DNA from: Candidatus Argoarchaeum ethanivorans
GTDB taxonomy: Archaea; Halobacteriota; Methanosarcinia; Methanosarcinales; EX4572-44
Direction: 5' to 3'
Length of the DNA stretch: 64,000 bases
Assembly (NCBI GenBank): GCA_004193545.1
Contig: RPGO01000026.1
Coordinates: 1-64,000, forward strand
Part shown: in pieces, positions 1-48,700 of the stretch
How positions within the stretch are numbered: position 1 is the stretch's first letter
Layout: every line of letters begins with the position of its first letter
Translations under genes and position numbers: made by a program
Notes under the pieces: generated by a model
Told to the model about the DNA's origin: nothing
Database searches by the model: none
Seen by the model: only the letters and a program-made list of their open reading frames with translations

Positions 1-199
1 TCAAATTAGCTTTAACTCCAGCTTTCCCATACTTGATCGCTACTTTTTGATGGCATTGTAGTAGAAAATCAGCTACAATAGACCATTTCTCACCAACATA
101 CGCCCAATATCGTTAGGCATATTTCACCATTATTACGACCAACAATCTGCCATATTTCGTGAGCTTGATCTCATCGAGGATAAAAAGATAGGATAGAAG

Positions 200-522
200 C
201 GTTATCTGTACAAAGCCCTGGAAAAACGGGACGAGGACAGCATTCACATCGTCTTTTATGATCTTCCCGATTCGTATTTTGAGGGGAGAAATGTGAGCTA
301 GCAAGCGTGGGGTGAGCCAAGAGCCAACTGGATTTCGGAAAAAAGAGTTGTCCTCTCACTTCTGGTGAACTCCAGCGGCTATCCCTTCGCATAAGACATA
401 CCCGAAGATTACACAGCGGATGTCGAAACGATCAAGGTTTGTCGATTCAGTGGAAAACAGATTTCAGGTTTGGAGATAACGAGATAGTGCTGGTTTTTGA
501 CAGGGAAACGATCTCCATGATG
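200..522 (+). pseudogene. Decayed IS1634/IS4-type transposase fragment
   Basis: Read on the plus strand, this stretch encodes recognisable middle parts of a DDE transposase: LYKALEKRDED, HIVFYDLPDSYFEG, KRVVLSLLVNSSGYPFA, DYTADVETIK, and after two frame changes VDSVENRFQV and VLVFDRETISMMN. These match the order of conserved blocks in IS1634-type transposases (the Y-FEG block, the R-V-L-L-V block, the F-DR block). In-frame TAG and TAA codons and frame changes show it is dead. It ends at the first CRISPR repeat, so the array's left end lies inside or against a broken transposase. No N-terminal part could be recognised in bases 1-199. Family placement is from memory of the motif order. Confidence 0.65.
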
Positions 523-523
523 A

Positions 524-1361
524 ATTTTAATCCCTCTAAGGTCTGATTTTAACATAATAGAATACTTATTCGTAGCACTAAGCATCTTAATTTCAATCCC
601 TCTAAGGTCTGATTTTAACATTTGCCCTATGGCAGGTTCATATTTTGCTCATAAGCTATTTCAATCCCTCTAAGGTCTGATTTTAACATTTGCCCTATGG
701 CAGGTTCATATTTTGCTCATAAGCTATTTCAATCCCTCTAAGGTCTGATTTTAACATTTGCCCTATGGCAGGTTCATATTTTGCTCATAAGCTATTTCAA
801 TCCCTCTAAGGTCTGATTTTAACATTTGCCCTATGGCAGGTTCATATTTTGCTCATAAGCTATTTCAATCCCTCTAAGGTCTGATTTTAACCAAGCTTCT
901 TAGCATCCGTCTTTTTACCGAATACAATATTTCAATCCCTCTAAGGTCTGATTTTAACGCAGAAGCAATAAGACTTTATCCGTTCCTATCTATCATTTCA
1001 ATCCCTCTAAGGTCTGATTTTAACGTGACTTTAGTTATTGGAGAAGGCGAAAACGAAATACATTTCAATCCCTCTAAGGTCTGATTTTAACAAGAGAAAT
1101 TTAGGACTCAGTGGAATTGTGGCAATTGCATTTCAATCCCTCTAAGGTCTGATTTTAACTTTTTGTACGCTTGCTATAGACGCTCAAAATCCAACATTTC
1201 AATCCCTCTAAGGTCTGATTTTAACGATTTCATCGGCGATATCGCAACCATAAGAGGGAACGCATTTCAATCCCTCTAAGGTCTGATTTTAACGAAGCTC
1301 AACGGTTGATCGAAGCACTACAAAAGTTTGTATTTCAATCCATCTAAGGTCTGATTTTAAC
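524..1361 (-). CRISPR. CRISPR array, 13 repeats of 30 bp, 12 spacers
   Basis: The plus-strand repeat begins ATTTCAATCCCTCTAAGG and ends GATTTTAAC (30 bp). Repeats start at 524, 590, 658, 726, 794, 862, 929, 995, 1062, 1130, 1196, 1264 and 1332; spacers are 36-38 bp. On the minus strand the repeat starts GTTAAAATC and ends ATTGAAAT, the usual 5'-handle end of archaeal type I/III repeats, so transcription is inferred leftwards, in the same direction as the cas genes. The repeat at 524 has C to T in the handle and the one at 1332 has C to A. Four consecutive spacers are identical. No leader is visible between the right-hand repeat and the stop codon of the neighbouring cas gene (3 bp). Confidence 0.97.
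620..891 (-). repeat. Four tandem 68-bp spacer-repeat units with an identical spacer
   Basis: Spacers at 620-657, 688-725, 756-793 and 824-861 are the same 38-bp sequence (starting ATTTGCCCTATGGCAGG). Together with their repeats they form a perfect 68-bp tandem repeat. This lies towards the presumed leader-distal end. It looks like unit amplification by recombination rather than four acquisitions; an assembly error is possible. Confidence 0.95.
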
Positions 1362-1364
1362 AGT

Positions 1365-2362
1365 TCAGTATTTTTCATTTCTTCTTCCCGTAGAAAATAT
1401 GCCAAATCCGCAGTTGCACCAGAGACCAATCCCAAAGGAGGCACCTATTGCCAGTTGACTTTTGACATCCTCTGTTATTTCATCAAATTCTAACCAGAAT
1501 TGACTTTCGATCCCTGCTGATAACCTGCTCTCTTTTCGTCCAATTTCATAGGAATATCTGTTTATAAATTCTGGTATCAGTCTCATTTCCGTAGATGAAA
1601 TAGCTGATGATTTCGTCATTTTGTCAATACAAATATCATTATACCTTTTGTTGAGCAGTGTAGAGAACACATGTCCTGAATTTTTTGTGTCGAAGGCTTC
1701 TTTGGAGTTATTGAATATAAGTGGTGTTTGAAATTCGATTTCTACTTTTGAATTATCAGGTTCAAGTTTATCATAACTACAGTAAACTAAATCTTCAACA
1801 CTCTTCTCATCAATCCTCTCAATATCAAACCTGCCAAAACCTATGCTTTTGAATCGTCCAATTCCGTTTTGCGATGCTAAATTAATAGCATCTGTCAGTT
1901 TATCAACAACATCAATTGCATCGTCAAACAGTGATACGGAAAACTGGAATTCAACCCCGCTTGGAATGCATTCTGCGTTCACTATCATTCCTTCTGCTGC
2001 GCTCCGGCTGTCTTTTGTCAGCGCAATTCGAGTGAACATATCGTATTTTGATTTTTCTTTTAAAATTCCACATGAAAAGATAGCGTTTGTCTTTTGCGTA
2101 TCGAAGAAAGATTTTACAGGACAATTCTCATGGCAGTCTGAATGAAACCTTTGTATTTCATGATAACTGTGTAATTTCCCCAGCTCGTTTATATGTTTCT
2201 GCAATGCAGTTCGATCAATGCTTTCAGTATGGCGCCTCTCAGGCTTGTGCCTGCTATAAATGGGGCACATTTTAACAGGTTTCGGTATTCTCTCTGCGTG
2301 GTGTGGAATGGGCTTTTTAATGTGCAGTTAAAAGAGAATACTGTACCCTCTCTAAGATTCAT
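1365..2362 (-). pseudogene. Type III CRISPR RAMP-superfamily (Cas7/Cas5-like) gene, frameshifted
   Basis: The open frame from 2270 to 1365 begins with a nonsense N-terminus, but the real start is in another frame. An ATG at 2362 overlaps the end of the upstream csm3-like gene and encodes MNLREGTVFSFNCTLKSPF, then TTQREYRNLLKCAPFIAGTS and LRGAILKALIE, a typical RAMP N-terminus with the G-[ST]-S-L-R-G motif. That frame stops near 2190; the downstream frame carries the rest, including two glycine-rich loops (GIGRFKSIGFGRF and a C-terminal GIGLWCNCGFGIF) and a small Cys cluster (DCHENCP). One base must be lost or gained around 2190-2230. It is the last gene of the cas operon, with its TGA 3 bp from the array. 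Sequencing error, true pseudogene and programmed shift are all possible. Exact subunit identity is uncertain (Csm5/Csx10/Cas6-like). Confidence 0.75.
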
Positions 2363-3112: not shown

Positions 3113-5110
3113 TTATCTCCTCCTTTTATTATATCTATTCTTACTGCGTGGGACAAGTTTACCAATATATTTGATGAATATCGCTCGTTTTATTCGGTTC
3201 TGATACTCACCTTCCGCCGGTTTCAGCTGGTTAATCGCATCAGCCAACCGTTTTCCGAACTCTCGGAGTTTGTCTTCACGTGTATCCAGTTCAAGCAGCA
3301 GTTCATCAATACTCGTATTCATAGCCACACCAGACAAACTATTTAGTTGAGTTGATGTCACGTTGCTATTTCGTGCAGTCTCTGCAAGTTCTCTTATTCT
3401 ACTAACTTCATCTGATTGAAACATCGTTACACATCCACCTGATATATCATAAATAACATCTCCATTTAAGCTATTATAAGTTGGCATCGATTCTATGAGG
3501 CTCCAGAAAGGAGTCTTGGTATTGCAGCTCATCAGAACAAGCGATGGGTTTAACCGTAAATCCAGTCGTTTTGTATTGAGGTATCGCAGGAAATCCCATG
3601 GCTGTGTCTCTGTTTCCCTGAAGAGATACCCTGTGAACTGCGGTGAATTGAACAGGGTTTTTTCGTAATCCCCGATGATGAGGCCATCGACATCCTCCTG
3701 AAATAACGATAATTCACGCAGCGCCTGCAAGTATTCAAGTATTCCACAATCGGTTGGTGGAATCAAATATGGATCTATCCTGCACTCAGCAAGGAAGCGG
3801 CTGATTAACTTCTCTTCAGCTACCTTTTGTGAATGCTCTACCAAATCGTCTGGTAGTTTTAAGAAGATATACGACAGACGCTCCCCTTCTCCGCCGATAA
3901 CGTCAAGATCATATCCTGTAGATTTTTTGCGCAGGTTGTAACAGAAATCACACAGAACGTGCCCCTTATCATCTTCTTTTTTGTCACCTTCAATCGGTTT
4001 TCCACACGCTGTGCAGATATAATCCTGATGCGGACTATCACTCAAAATTTTATCAGATAGGATTGTGTAGTATCTCTTGATGACTCGATGTCCTCTGACA
4101 AATATATTTTTATGAGAAGTTTTTGTATCAGAATTTAGATCTATCGCACAACTATATTCATTAACGTTAACTGTGAGCGAAAAGAACAGATCTAATCCAT
4201 TTAATACTTCACTTAGCTTTTCAAGTACAGTCTCATGTGACGGATGCAGCAATACAAGGCTGTTTTTGTTGTAAAACAGAAAAGGATTCGATTTTTTATG
4301 TGGTATCCCATTGAGTTTACTGCGATAGTGACCGAAAAGTTTGTTAAGAATTTCTGTGGATAATTTTTCTGTTAGTGAATGCAGTCCACTGACCTCCCTC
4401 ATTCGGTAAAACGTCCTGAGCGAGTCGGGAGTTATTTCAATAACAGAAAAACTAAATTCCTTAAAATCTCTTAAATCGTCATATTTTTCGAGTTCATCGC
4501 ACAAGAACAGGAACAAAGCAGCACTCAACTGGTGGTGCATCGCCAATGACAGATGAGGCAGGAGTGTCTTAAAAGGGTAGTTTAAGAGTTTATCTTGGAT
4601 CTTAAGTATGTTGTTTGCCCACCAATTAGGAGTAGGTGATTTTTCCAATTTACCAAAAATCTCTTTGAGAGACGAATTCGCTTTACTATCATTCCATATT
4701 TCCAGCGTACCGTAATACGGAACAAAATATTTTTCACGACTTTTAATCTCGCTGATTTTATCTTCACCGACAACTTCTTTGATCTTATCTTCATTTGGAA
4801 GCATGCTTGATTGAATCTTATCTGAAAGAATTAACGCATATTCAATTTTTGACAACTTAGTAAAATCAAATATTTTTTCGTTCTTAACATTTCCATGGTG
4901 AATTGAGATCAAATCCACAACATTCTCCCCAAGAAGTTCAACAAAGTCAATTCCAGTTCTCTTGCCAACTGCTATCAAGTCCCAATGATGCACCCATGTG
5001 TTATTTTTAAGTGCCATTTTTCCAATATCATGCAGGGCAGCGGCAATGAACCCTTCAAATAATGTATATTTTCTCCATTTATCCACCCTTATCCTACAAC
5101 ACACCTTCAC
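3113..5110 (-). CDS. cas10: Cas10 large subunit with HD domain and degenerate palm motif
   Basis: A 665-residue Cas10/Csm1-like protein with a GTG start. An HD nuclease signature lies at the N-terminus (ALHDIGKMA, His27-Asp28, then HHWD and a later HH at ISIHHG). A C4 zinc finger follows at about residues 366-390 (CTACGKP and CDFC). Where the second palm domain normally has GGDD, the sequence is SGGCV (about residues 557-561), followed by a helix like that after GGDD in active proteins (DEVSRIRELAETA). Known family rule: GGDD is needed to make cyclic oligoadenylate, so this Cas10 probably cuts ssDNA through HD but does not signal. That resembles subtypes with an inactivated cyclase. No Csm6/Csx1 effector is encoded nearby, which fits. 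Confidence 0.88.
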   Translation of the reverse strand: MKVCCRIRVDKWRKYTLFEGFIAAALHDIGKMALKNNTWVHHWDLIAVGKRTGIDFVELLGENVVDLISIHHGNVKNEKIFDFTKLSKIEYALILSDKIQSSMLPNEDKIKEVVGEDKISEIKSREKYFVPYYGTLEIWNDSKANSSLKEIFGKLEKSPTPNWWANNILKIQDKLLNYPFKTLLPHLSLAMHHQLSAALFLFLCDELEKYDDLRDFKEFSFSVIEITPDSLRTFYRMREVSGLHSLTEKLSTEILNKLFGHYRSKLNGIPHKKSNPFLFYNKNSLVLLHPSHETVLEKLSEVLNGLDLFFSLTVNVNEYSCAIDLNSDTKTSHKNIFVRGHRVIKRYYTILSDKILSDSPHQDYICTACGKPIEGDKKEDDKGHVLCDFCYNLRKKSTGYDLDVIGGEGERLSYIFLKLPDDLVEHSQKVAEEKLISRFLAECRIDPYLIPPTDCGILEYLQALRELSLFQEDVDGLIIGDYEKTLFNSPQFTGYLFRETETQPWDFLRYLNTKRLDLRLNPSLVLMSCNTKTPFWSLIESMPTYNSLNGDVIYDISGGCVTMFQSDEVSRIRELAETARNSNVTSTQLNSLSGVAMNTSIDELLLELDTREDKLREFGKRLADAINQLKPAEGEYQNRIKRAIFIKYIGKLVPRSKNRYNKRRR

Positions 5111-5340
5111 GTCTTTTGATGTTAAATGCCTTAAATTCTTTCAGACAAGAACAACACACTAATCAATTAAATATCTTTTTACAGTAGTGCACCATTTCAC
5201 CACCACATCACGAGCGGCTTGTATTCCTTTTCACCGATAAAGTGTTTTGTTAGTTTATATAATTCGATTCTGATGAGTCTTTTGAATGATACTTTTCTGT
5301 TCAGTCCACGGTGTAGCTTTCAGGAGGTTGTGCGTTGGTG

Positions 5341-6075
5341 TTATCCTGTGTTTATGATCTCCACACACCCAAAGCCCATGGCGTTCTTTTCCCCGAGTCC
5401 AGCGTCGTATGCAAATTTAAGTAGTTGGGGGGCTGCCTGGATTTGCAAGTTCATGAGGTTGCATCGTCGATAGTTTTCTGCGATTTTGATTCGTTTTGGT
5501 TTGATGTTGGAGGTTTTTATTGTGTCGAAGTAGTCTTTTTCAGGTGGTTTGTTGTAGAATTTGGTGTACCGTTCTACAAGGTTTTTGTGCATATTTTCAT
5601 AGAATTTGGGTTCGTTTGGGTAGAGGTCGGTTTCTCTTATTTTTCCGTTATGGTATCGTTGTGTTTTTATGTATATTGGTGATATTGTTTTGAAGGTACA
5701 TTCGTTCTTGAACTGTGGTGGTGTGAGTATTTCAATGCGTTCGATTGTGAAATCAGCCCTTCTGTGCAGTCCTTTAAGGTAAAATTCCGGGTTCATAAGC
5801 AGGCCCTCTGCAAAGCTCTTGATAAATCTGTCATCCGGAGACGACAGAAAGAAATGTGCCCTGTTAAAGCTCAGTCCTGTTTCACATCGTTTTTTATCTT
5901 CAAGTATCAGGTTGGAAAATGTGTAAAATTTGAATCCCTTGTGCGAGTGTGTCTCATTTGCAAGTTCAACATCAGACTCTGCGAGTTTTTTGTAGAGCAT
6001 CGATGCAATTTCGTACTGGTAATTGTAGTCTATCGGAATGTTTGATCGTTTCAATATGGTTATTTTGCCCCTCAC
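5341..6075 (-). CDS. cas6: Cas6 CRISPR RNA endoribonuclease
   Basis: A 244-residue Cas6 that would cut pre-crRNA at the base of the repeat to leave an 8-nt handle. The C-terminal glycine-rich loop is clear (GLGEKNAMGFGCVEI). His43, His45 and Lys47 (ETHSHKGFKFYTFSNL) are in the region that supplies the general base in other Cas6 proteins. It is the first gene of the minus-strand cas operon, 230 bp upstream of the cas10 start. That gap (5111-5340) has only a short coding-looking minus-strand stretch ([20 protein letters not shown]) that I cannot assign; it may be debris or an unrecognised N-terminal extension. Confidence 0.93.
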   Translation of the reverse strand: MRGKITILKRSNIPIDYNYQYEIASMLYKKLAESDVELANETHSHKGFKFYTFSNLILEDKKRCETGLSFNRAHFFLSSPDDRFIKSFAEGLLMNPEFYLKGLHRRADFTIERIEILTPPQFKNECTFKTISPIYIKTQRYHNGKIRETDLYPNEPKFYENMHKNLVERYTKFYNKPPEKDYFDTIKTSNIKPKRIKIAENYRRCNLMNLQIQAAPQLLKFAYDAGLGEKNAMGFGCVEIINTG

Positions 6076-17560: not shown

Positions 17561-19220
<1,660 letters not shown>

Positions 19221-36190: not shown

Positions 36191-36577
36191 ATGGTCGATC
36201 AGGCTGAGATTCACAGGAAAACCGTAAGCAGTGATGTTGAGGAACGTCGATGGGCGGCGGAGCAACTACGCAGTGATTTTGCAGATTTACCTGACAAAGA
36301 AGCAGCATGGAAAGACTTGATTCAACTAACACAGTACAAAGACCCTGGTGTGCAGTGGAGGATAGCAGGTACACTTGGTTCTGCCTTCCAACACGTTCCA
36401 GATAAAGAAGCAGCATGGAAAGACCTGCACAAACTAACACAGGACAACGACCGTTTGGTGCGGTGGAGTGCAGCAGATGCACTTGGTTTTGCCTTCCAAC
36501 ACGTTCCGGATAAAGAAGAAACGTGGAAAGACCTGCACAAACTAACACAGGGCAAAGACAGTGATGTGCGGATGTGA
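36191..36577 (+). CDS. Short HEAT-repeat protein, probably truncated
   Basis: A 128-residue protein of near-identical repeats of about 32 residues built on 'FQHVPDKEAAWKDLHKLTQD…RWSAADALG'. Three repeats are visible, the last one cut at QGKDSDVRM. The DNA then continues, one frame over, into a dockerin tail. So a longer repeat protein was probably shortened by deletion. Such repeats are common in large families in Methanosarcinales-type genomes. Confidence 0.7.
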   Translation: MVDQAEIHRKTVSSDVEERRWAAEQLRSDFADLPDKEAAWKDLIQLTQYKDPGVQWRIAGTLGSAFQHVPDKEAAWKDLHKLTQDNDRLVRWSAADALGFAFQHVPDKEETWKDLHKLTQGKDSDVRM

Positions 36578-45700: not shown

Positions 45701-48700
45701 TTGTTGTTGTTAATGCTGTTGTTGGATAATGTGTTGTAAGATGATGCAGAGATTGTAATACCGCTTCCTGAATTCGAGTTTATCGTGTTATTCTCCAAAA
45801 TGCTATCGCTCGTACTACCATAAAGATTTATACCGCCGTCGTTCGAGTACACGATATTCTTTGTCAATATATTGTTATTACCACCAATCGCAATTCCGTA
45901 ACCCGAGTTAAAACTCACATTATTACCCGATATATTATTGTTATGCGAAGGGCGCCAGTAGTATAAATGGATTCCCCTGTCGTTGTTTGAAATAACCGTA
46001 TTACTAATTATCTTATTGCTATTCGAGCTTGATAGAAAAATGCCAGTCTCCTTGTTTTTTTCTATACTGTTACCTTCTATGACATTGTTCGATGAGCCAT
46101 AAAGTTCAATTCCATGCCCTTGATTAGAAGTCAAATTATTGCTGATAATTCTGTTGTTATGGGATTTGCGCAAATCAACGCCTTTGTATTTATTATTTTT
46201 TATCACGTTGTTTTCTATGGCATTATTATTTGACGCATCGCCAAAAGAAATTCCATCGCTGTTTGAACTTATTGTGTTGTTTTCTATAGCATTATTTGAC
46301 GCATCGCGGAAAGAAATTCCATCGCTGTTTGAACTTATTGTGTTGTTTTCTATGGCATTATTATTGCTGTAATCATTTAGATAAATACCGCCATAAAGCG
46401 AATTAGAATGAACAGAGTTGTTTATTATCGTGTTGTTATTGCTGTGATCATTTAGATAAATACCAGAATGCGAGTTTGAATATACGGAGTTGTTTTTTAT
46501 TGTATTATTTGTGCATGAATCACGAAGATAAATGCCATCCTGCGAATTTTTGGTCATAGTGTTGTTGGTTAAGGAGTTGTTGCACGAGTAAGATTTCAAG
46601 TAGATGCCGTAGTAGTTGTTAGACGAGTTTATATCCATTAAGTTGGAAAAATCAGTTTGCACTAAAAGAATGCCATTATTTTTCTTTGTTGATGAGCCTT
46701 CTACTGTTATATTGTTTATGTCGGAGTGGTCGGCATTGCATAAGATTAACTCTGAAAGGTCTTCATCTGATAAGCTAACAGATGAATTGAAATATCTTAT
46801 CGGTCTGTCTCCGGAGCCGGTCGTGTTATCTATTTTGTTGTTGCAGTGCGAAACGGAAGTTGCGTGAATGAATAAGTCAAACTTGCTATTTTCCTTTGCT
46901 GTGTTATTTGTTAAGGTGTTGTTGCTCGAAGAAGACAGGGAGATGCCATGGTCGTCATTTGAGTTGGCGGTGTTGCTCGTTAAGGTATTGTTATTCGAGG
47001 AAGACAAGTAGATGCCGTGGTAATATTTGTTTGAATTAGCAGTGCTGTTCGTCAAGGTATTGTTATTCGAGGAAGACAAATAGATGCCGTGGTCATGGTT
47101 TGAGTTGGCGGTGTTGTTTGTTAAAGTGTTGTTGCTCGAAGAAGACAAGTAGATGCCGTATTCATTATTCGAGTTAGCAGTGCTGTTCGTTAAAGTGTTG
47201 CTGCTTGAAGAGGACAAACAGATGCCGTATTCATCATTTGAATTAGCAGTGCTGTTCGTTAAAGTGTTGTTATTCGATGATTTCAAATAGATGCCATGTT
47301 TGTCGTTTGAGTTAGCTATGTTGCTCGTTAAGGTGTTGTTGCTCGAAGAAGACAAGAGAATACCATGGTCGCATTTATTCCAATTTGCAATATTGCTCGT
47401 CAAGGTGTTGTTATTCGAATACTTTAAGGAGATGCCATATCGGTAGTTCGAGTTAGCGATATTGTCTGTTAAGGTGTTGTTATTCGATTGAAACAACACG
47501 ATTCCGTAATAATTATTTGTTATCAAATTATTCTCAATTATTGTGTCATTCGTATTGATCCACAAACCGGCAAGGTCTCCATTTATCCCCCAGGTGTAAC
47601 CGCACTCGTGTAGTTCAGAATCGTGCATCTCGAACTTCGCACCGGATTTCACTTGGAAGCAGTATTCATAATTTGTGTTCTTTGCAGTAATTTCGGAATC
47701 GGAGATGTGCATCTCTCCGCCATTTTGAACTTCAATGTGATACTGTCTGTCTTTGGTGCAATCCATGAATACTTGGGTATTAATCAAAGTGAGGTTCCCT
47801 GTTGAATTGATAATTAAATTGCTGCTTAAGATTTTTACTTCGTCTTTCCACACCGTTTCGTTTCCTATTATAATATCGCTTAATTTTACTACACTCGGAT
47901 TATATGTTTCGTTAAGTTCCTCTTCGGGTTCGGATGTGGGGGTAACATTAATAGGTGGGGATTGTACAGGCTCTTCTGGCGATGTGGTTAATTTGGTTGG
48001 TGGAGATTGTGAAGGCAAAGGCACAGGCTCTTTTATTACCGATTCATTACCATAACTTTCGTTGAACTCCTCTTTTGGAGATTGTGCGGGTTCGGGTTCA
48101 GGTTCAGGAGTGGGGGCGGGAGTAATGTTTGCAAGTGGCGATGCGGCACTGGCAGTAGCAAGAAAATTATATAGACTCATAGCAAGAGAGAATATAGCAG
48201 AAGATGACGACGAAGGCACCTCTTCTATTTGCGATTCTTCCTCTTCCGCTGTTGAACTGGTGTAGGATGCCAGTAGTTTTGCAGTAGCTTTCGCAGGTGC
48301 GAGTTTAGTTTCAGACGGCATGGATGTACGAACGATTTTGAGGTGTAACGTGCCGTTTACAATCTCCCCATCAAGGTTCGTTATATTTGTAAGGATGGAG
48401 ACATTCTCGTTCTTGAAATATATTTTCCTCTCGGTGTCAGAGGTCAAATCCGCATTCAAACCATTTACTTCGCATACCGCAGCCAACTCTATCTCTTTTC
48501 CTGTCTCTTTATCTTTGCATGTGACAAACAGATAATATGAGCCGTTTACCGACTGATCAGGAATTCCAAAGGCGAGTGTCTTGTTCGCAAGCGAAAGAGC
48601 CGTATCCTCAACTACATCCTCGTGCATCAATTTACCCTTCCAGTCAACGAGTTTGAAGGAGCAATTGAAAACAGTATCCACGCCGCCGACATTTGAGATA

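Follow-up and report, generated by a model that had tools for sequence, protein, structure and literature searches.

Gene content of the locus

The window is the whole stretch of DNA analysed here and covers bases 1-64000 of a contig of 71,918 bases from a genome assembly of 1.99 Mb in 46 contigs, 82% complete. Near its low-coordinate end, 524 bp from the contig end, lies a CRISPR array. Four cas genes on the - strand run toward it in the order cas6-cas10-cas7-cas5. The features are as follows.

5341..6075, - strand: cas6 (TIGR01877, E 1.5e-47; PF01881)
5197..5313, - strand: cas1 scar between cas6 and cas10, what remains of a deleted cas1 (its final 38 codons plus the stop)
3113..5110, - strand: large subunit resembling Cas10 (665 aa); HD-type residues present, GGDD motif absent; homologues in the related loci L086, L087 and L088
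2352..3110, - strand: cas7 (Csx7/Csm3-like RAMP; TIGR02581, E 2.4e-33, above the cut-off; PF03787)
1365..2362, - strand: cas5-like RAMP gene in two frames; weak profile matches to Csm4, Cas6 and Csm3; homologue in L086
524..1361, - strand (sense inferred): CRISPR array, its 12 spacers (36-38 nt) set between 13 repeats (30 nt); oriented by the conserved upstream flanks of related arrays
1332..1361, - strand: the repeat transcribed first, one base off the internal repeats, 3 nt past the cas5 stop codon, without a leader
590..861, - strand: four identical 68-bp spacer-repeat units, with repeats at 590, 658, 726 and 794
620-657, 688-725, 756-793 and 824-861: the copies of the identical 38-nt spacer
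524..553, - strand: leader-distal end repeat, one base off the internal repeats
1..523, no strand assigned: decayed repeated element flanking the leader-distal end; a second copy (91%) lies elsewhere in the genome

In excerpts of PMC12669027, subtype III-H is marked by a Palm domain that is inactivated, by an HD domain that seems to be active and by the absence of an adaptation module; the locus modelled there is RPGO01000026 from 'Ca. Argoarchaeum ethanivorans'. The sequences of the operon and array agree with this published subtype in the features that were tested. Residues H27 D28, H71 H72 and D97 are invariant in an alignment of three homologues of the Cas10-like protein, and from these kept residues the HD domain is predicted to be apparently active, as in III-H. 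The GGDD motif is absent from all three aligned homologues. III-H also has a diverged Cas11 that stands in for the Cas10 C-terminal domain; no separate gene of this kind was assigned in the window. A single cas7 and a single cas5, the latter split over two frames, stand beside cas10, and all that the locus holds of an adaptation module is the 38-codon cas1 scar.

The Cas10 profile aligned with residues 22-124 of the Cas10-like protein, and Cas10 profile matches were weak in all three homologues. Searching the PDB by sequence gave no convincing match to this protein, and an AlphaFold2 model built from the three sequences was discarded (mean pLDDT 41). With the single sequence as query, four of the 236 genomes searched in the class gave a homologue, in one case a fragment. 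With the three-row alignment, 392 genomes of the phylum yielded the genome itself and a marginal match in G195 (E 8.4e-4).

The first frame of the cas5-like gene ends at a stop at 2189-2191, and its main open frame covers 1365-2270; the split may be a mutation or a sequence error. The L086 homologue has a frame change too, at a position other than that of the change near 2190 in the window gene (2160-2362).

A spacer-repeat unit present four times

Repeats start at 524, 590, 658, 726, 794, 862, 929, 995, 1062, 1130, 1196, 1264 and 1332. All 11 internal repeats are identical, and the two end copies each differ from them by one base. These are regularly spaced direct repeats with spacers of similar size, within the range of about 23-47 nt that characterizes CRISPR arrays. 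A pattern search of all contigs found no copy of the repeat elsewhere in the genome. Rfam returned only sub-threshold matches to CRISPR-DR39, for 12 of the 13 repeats.

The array holds nine distinct sequences among its 12 spacers, one of them present four times. The sequence-only reading had reported four identical spacers in tandem (spacers 2-5 from the low-coordinate end) separated by identical repeats at 620-861. Direct comparison and Tandem Repeats Finder (68-bp unit, 4.4 copies, 100% match, 590-891) agree on this arrangement, and the coordinates were right. The four 38-nt copies are the same letter for letter, and the remaining eight spacers (36-38 nt) are mutually different. At 590-861 the array thus consists of adjacent, exact copies of a whole unit, the hallmark of tandem duplication; an exact 68-bp unit present four times is no chance match. 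Read on the - strand, where the repeat ends ATTGAAAT, the copies are units 8-11 of 12 in transcription order, near the leader-distal end.

The flank beyond that end (1..523) gave no match in a Pfam scan; it may contain a transposase remnant. Elsewhere in the window, imperfect tandem repeats (about 66-72 bp, with a coding-like period) extend at length over 46207-47356; a 108-bp tandem repeat of 2.6 copies with 83% match, probably within a repeat protein, lies at 36296-36571; and at 18447-18478 the triplet AAT is repeated without error for 10.7 units.

No recognisable leader and a remnant of cas1

Related arrays with the same repeat share conserved 5' flanks: of 12 compared, ten each match at least nine others. 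This fixes the leader side and puts the sense of the window array on the - strand. Its own 5' flank is the 3' end of cas5, with the cas5 stop codon followed by 3 nt and then the first repeat. None of the 12 related leaders compared matches there; across the whole window, the best that any of them gives is a 25-nt match within cas10 (E 0.003). By this comparison the array is without a recognisable leader, which bears on acquisition and not on its status as an array. An adaptation-gene fragment forms the 5' flank of another same-repeat array, which starts right after the first ~16 codons of cas4 (L029:915-1145).

Cas1 proteins from two related loci, L086 (genome G026) and L087 (G185), each gave one significant match to the window, confined to their final 38 residues and located at 5313-5200. 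Identity is 74% for L086 (E 3e-14) and 71% for L087 (E 1e-13), and the stop codon lies at 5197-5199. In all three other loci found with the same cas10 (L086, L087 and L088 of G034), cas4 and cas1 stand directly before it, with the cas10 start alone present in L088 and its cas1 interrupted by a run of N. The corresponding segments are L086:1457-6375, L087:340-4057 and L088:1-1673, each with a III-H-type cas10. L086 further carries an I-B set (cas6, cas3, cas5 and cas7) on the other side, and its opposite strand encodes a nucleotidyltransferase/HEPN pair between cas4 and cas1 (4681-5660).

Loci fetched by the array repeat, at most 8 kb each, indicate which repeat the lost gene served. Cas1 of the L086 type (at least 73% identity over at least 211 aa) is present in eight of the 32 (L032, L035, L040, L042, L043, L046, L048 and L050), and the deleted cas1 was therefore probably the gene that served the repeat of the window array. 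A Cas1-like stretch corresponding to the final 32 residues (81%) also occurs past the leader-distal end of a same-repeat array (L041:1725-1820), fused to an ATPase-like frame (L041/L054).

In the genome itself, profiles detected Cas1 and Cas2 only in the I-B locus, whose repeat is another one, of 37 nt, and this Cas1 is 22-23% identical to those of the relatives, which are of the lost kind. With no leader and with its adaptation genes deleted, the array should no longer acquire spacers at the leader end in the usual way, and it probably changes through internal copying instead. Acquisition may still take place in trans, either by the Cas1-Cas2 of the I-B locus or by genes absent from the 82% complete assembly.

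Tandem spacers in related arrays

We surveyed 29 array stretches with the same repeat (the window and loci L019-L050) containing 782 spacers, long arrays being split over several loci. Four tandem identical pairs were detected, three in the window and one in L019, which belongs to the same family (six genomes in the collection). In L019 the final two spacers, units 4-5 of 5, are identical. L023 contains one non-adjacent identical pair, and no spacer repeats in the other 26 stretches. Tandem pairs are absent from all 27 same-repeat stretches outside the family, among which are leaderless-looking arrays. At L019:1-370 the contig begins in a 40-mer that recurs at 199, probably because of another duplication, a non-adjacent one, or of a break in the assembly.

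The I-B arrays of the family were also compared. That of the single-contig genome G005 contains one tandem pair, at units 72-73 of 83; none was found in the I-B array of the genome itself (24 spacers) or in that of G003 (stretches of 17 and 4). The three tandem runs of the family (window, L019 and G005) are all leader-distal. Fisher tests (p 0.0025 with the window, 0.036 without it) were set aside, as they were post hoc and counted pieces of one array as independent. At L017:11152-11260, in the I-B locus of the genome itself, two identical 37-nt repeats lie 72 nt apart and differ from the main I-B repeat there.

How the four copies may have arisen

Three origins had been proposed from sequence alone: duplication of the unit, repeated acquisition of one protospacer and an assembly error. 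Unit duplication is now the best supported, repeated acquisition is unlikely, and an assembly error is kept as a lesser possibility. Support for duplication comes from the identical boundaries, the leader-distal position, the lack of a leader or an intact cas1 next to the array and the tandem duplicates in two relatives of the same family. We consider it probable (about 0.7) that two or more tandem duplications turned one old unit into four, in a III-H-type operon whose adaptation genes were deleted and whose array is leaderless.

The copies would have been made by slippage during replication, or by unequal recombination, at the identical 30-nt repeats; either would explain why the copies share their boundaries, are adjacent and lie in the interior. 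Excerpts of PMC8047081 describe duplication of spacer units via misaligned repeats. In our reading, deletion of the operon's own adaptation genes would have left the 38-codon scar and, with the array leaderless and leader-end acquisition gone, internal duplication or deletion would be the main remaining route of array change. Two points weigh against this reading. According to excerpts of PMC11472070, duplicated units are thought to be easily lost, so that four copies would call for recent events or for selection; and the 27 same-repeat stretches outside the family, some of them leaderless-looking, have no tandem pair.

If one protospacer had been captured four times in succession at the same site, the resulting units would be identical too, and sequence alone cannot discriminate between this and duplication. 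Such a history would need the same ends, the same 38-nt length (the other spacers vary from 36 to 38 nt) and the same orientation four times running. The array now has neither a leader nor a cas1 next to it, both of which could have been lost later. Among 805 duplication candidates in 24,090 spacers, the excerpted results of PMC11472070 class 695 as duplications, the most frequent kind, and eight as reacquisitions. We therefore regard repeated acquisition as highly improbable.

The number of copies could also be an artefact, if in assembly a 68-bp cycle was run through four times or the region was joined wrongly, and the true copy number differs. In favour of this, only 524 bp separate the array from a contig end, the assembly being in 46 contigs; perfect repeats of 302 bp can lead assembly astray; and the related array L019 breaks at its contig start in a 40-mer that recurs within the array. 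Against this, assemblers collapse or break at perfect repeats more often than they add exact copies, the flanking spacers are on one contig and all different, and the tandem pair of G005 comes from a single-contig genome. An error of this kind is unlikely, if by no means negligible.

Targets and possible function

No convincing protospacer was found for the 38-nt spacer, either among 50,697 phage records, where the top match had E 6, or among 72,556 plasmid records, where the best match (E 0.1, 82% of the query) was to Lactobacillus crispatus. Exact 24- and 20-mers of this spacer and 21-mers from three of the eight other spacers had no match in viral contigs. In 236 genomes of the class, searched with up to three mismatches, the spacer was retrieved only as the four array copies in its own genome; hence no self-target of such closeness was found in this set. 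Viral carriage of the system was also sought: the 19-nt core of the repeat occurs in no viral contig, and none of 26 pattern matches to a Cas10 relative on viral contigs was confirmed.

Four of the twelve crRNA units would carry one guide, co-transcribed with the cas genes and processed by the Cas6 of the operon. The suggestion that the fourfold unit raises the dose of one crRNA is possible on this arithmetic (4/12 units). Taken further, a III-H system without cas1 and leader might exchange adaptation for amplification, one guide reaching a third of the units under selection by a recurring invader. We offer this as a speculation with little probability behind it; if it were true, leader-distal tandem copies would be a mark of stranded arrays that adapt by dosage and not by new memory.

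Alternatively, the whole locus may be decaying and the array unused, the fourfold unit being functionless drift. The cas1 scar, the cas5 gene spread over two frames, the missing leader and the decayed repeated element at the far flank are all in keeping with a relic. Yet open frames persist in cas10, cas7 and cas6, which are conserved (identity to their counterparts in G026 of 72%, 80% and 54%, respectively), the 11 internal repeats are identical, and the lone frameshift in cas5 may be a sequence error. A relic is less likely than not. This reading concerns function alone and is compatible with the duplication mechanism.

If the reading of tandem duplication in an array cut off from acquisition holds, the missing III-H adaptation genes would here be a loss with a visible scar and not an original feature. 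The array would then be a natural test of how CRISPR evolves once new spacers cannot enter, and guide amplification by selection versus drift would become testable.

Comparison with known systems

Like the III-H systems described in excerpts of PMC12669027, the window locus combines a cas10 that has HD-type residues and lacks GGDD with cas7, cas5 and no adaptation genes. III-H is said there to lack adaptation modules, whereas the window retains a cas1 scar and three related loci keep cas4-cas1 at the same cas10; no mention of a cas1 scar was found in the excerpted account of III-H.

The I-B locus of the same genome (L017, contig C5) is likewise an adaptive CRISPR-Cas system, with cas1, cas2, cas4 and a 25-repeat array. 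It differs from the window locus in its 37-nt repeat, in its spacers, all 24 of which are unique, and in its Cas1, only distantly similar (22-23%) to the lost one.

The run in the window is of an ordinary kind, a tandem unit duplication, though a long one. Known tandem spacer-repeat duplications, as excerpts of PMC8047081 and PMC11472070 present them, involve a pair or a block, while the window has four copies of one unit; compared with the cases in these excerpts, its duplicated array has neither a leader nor an intact cas1 adjacent to it.
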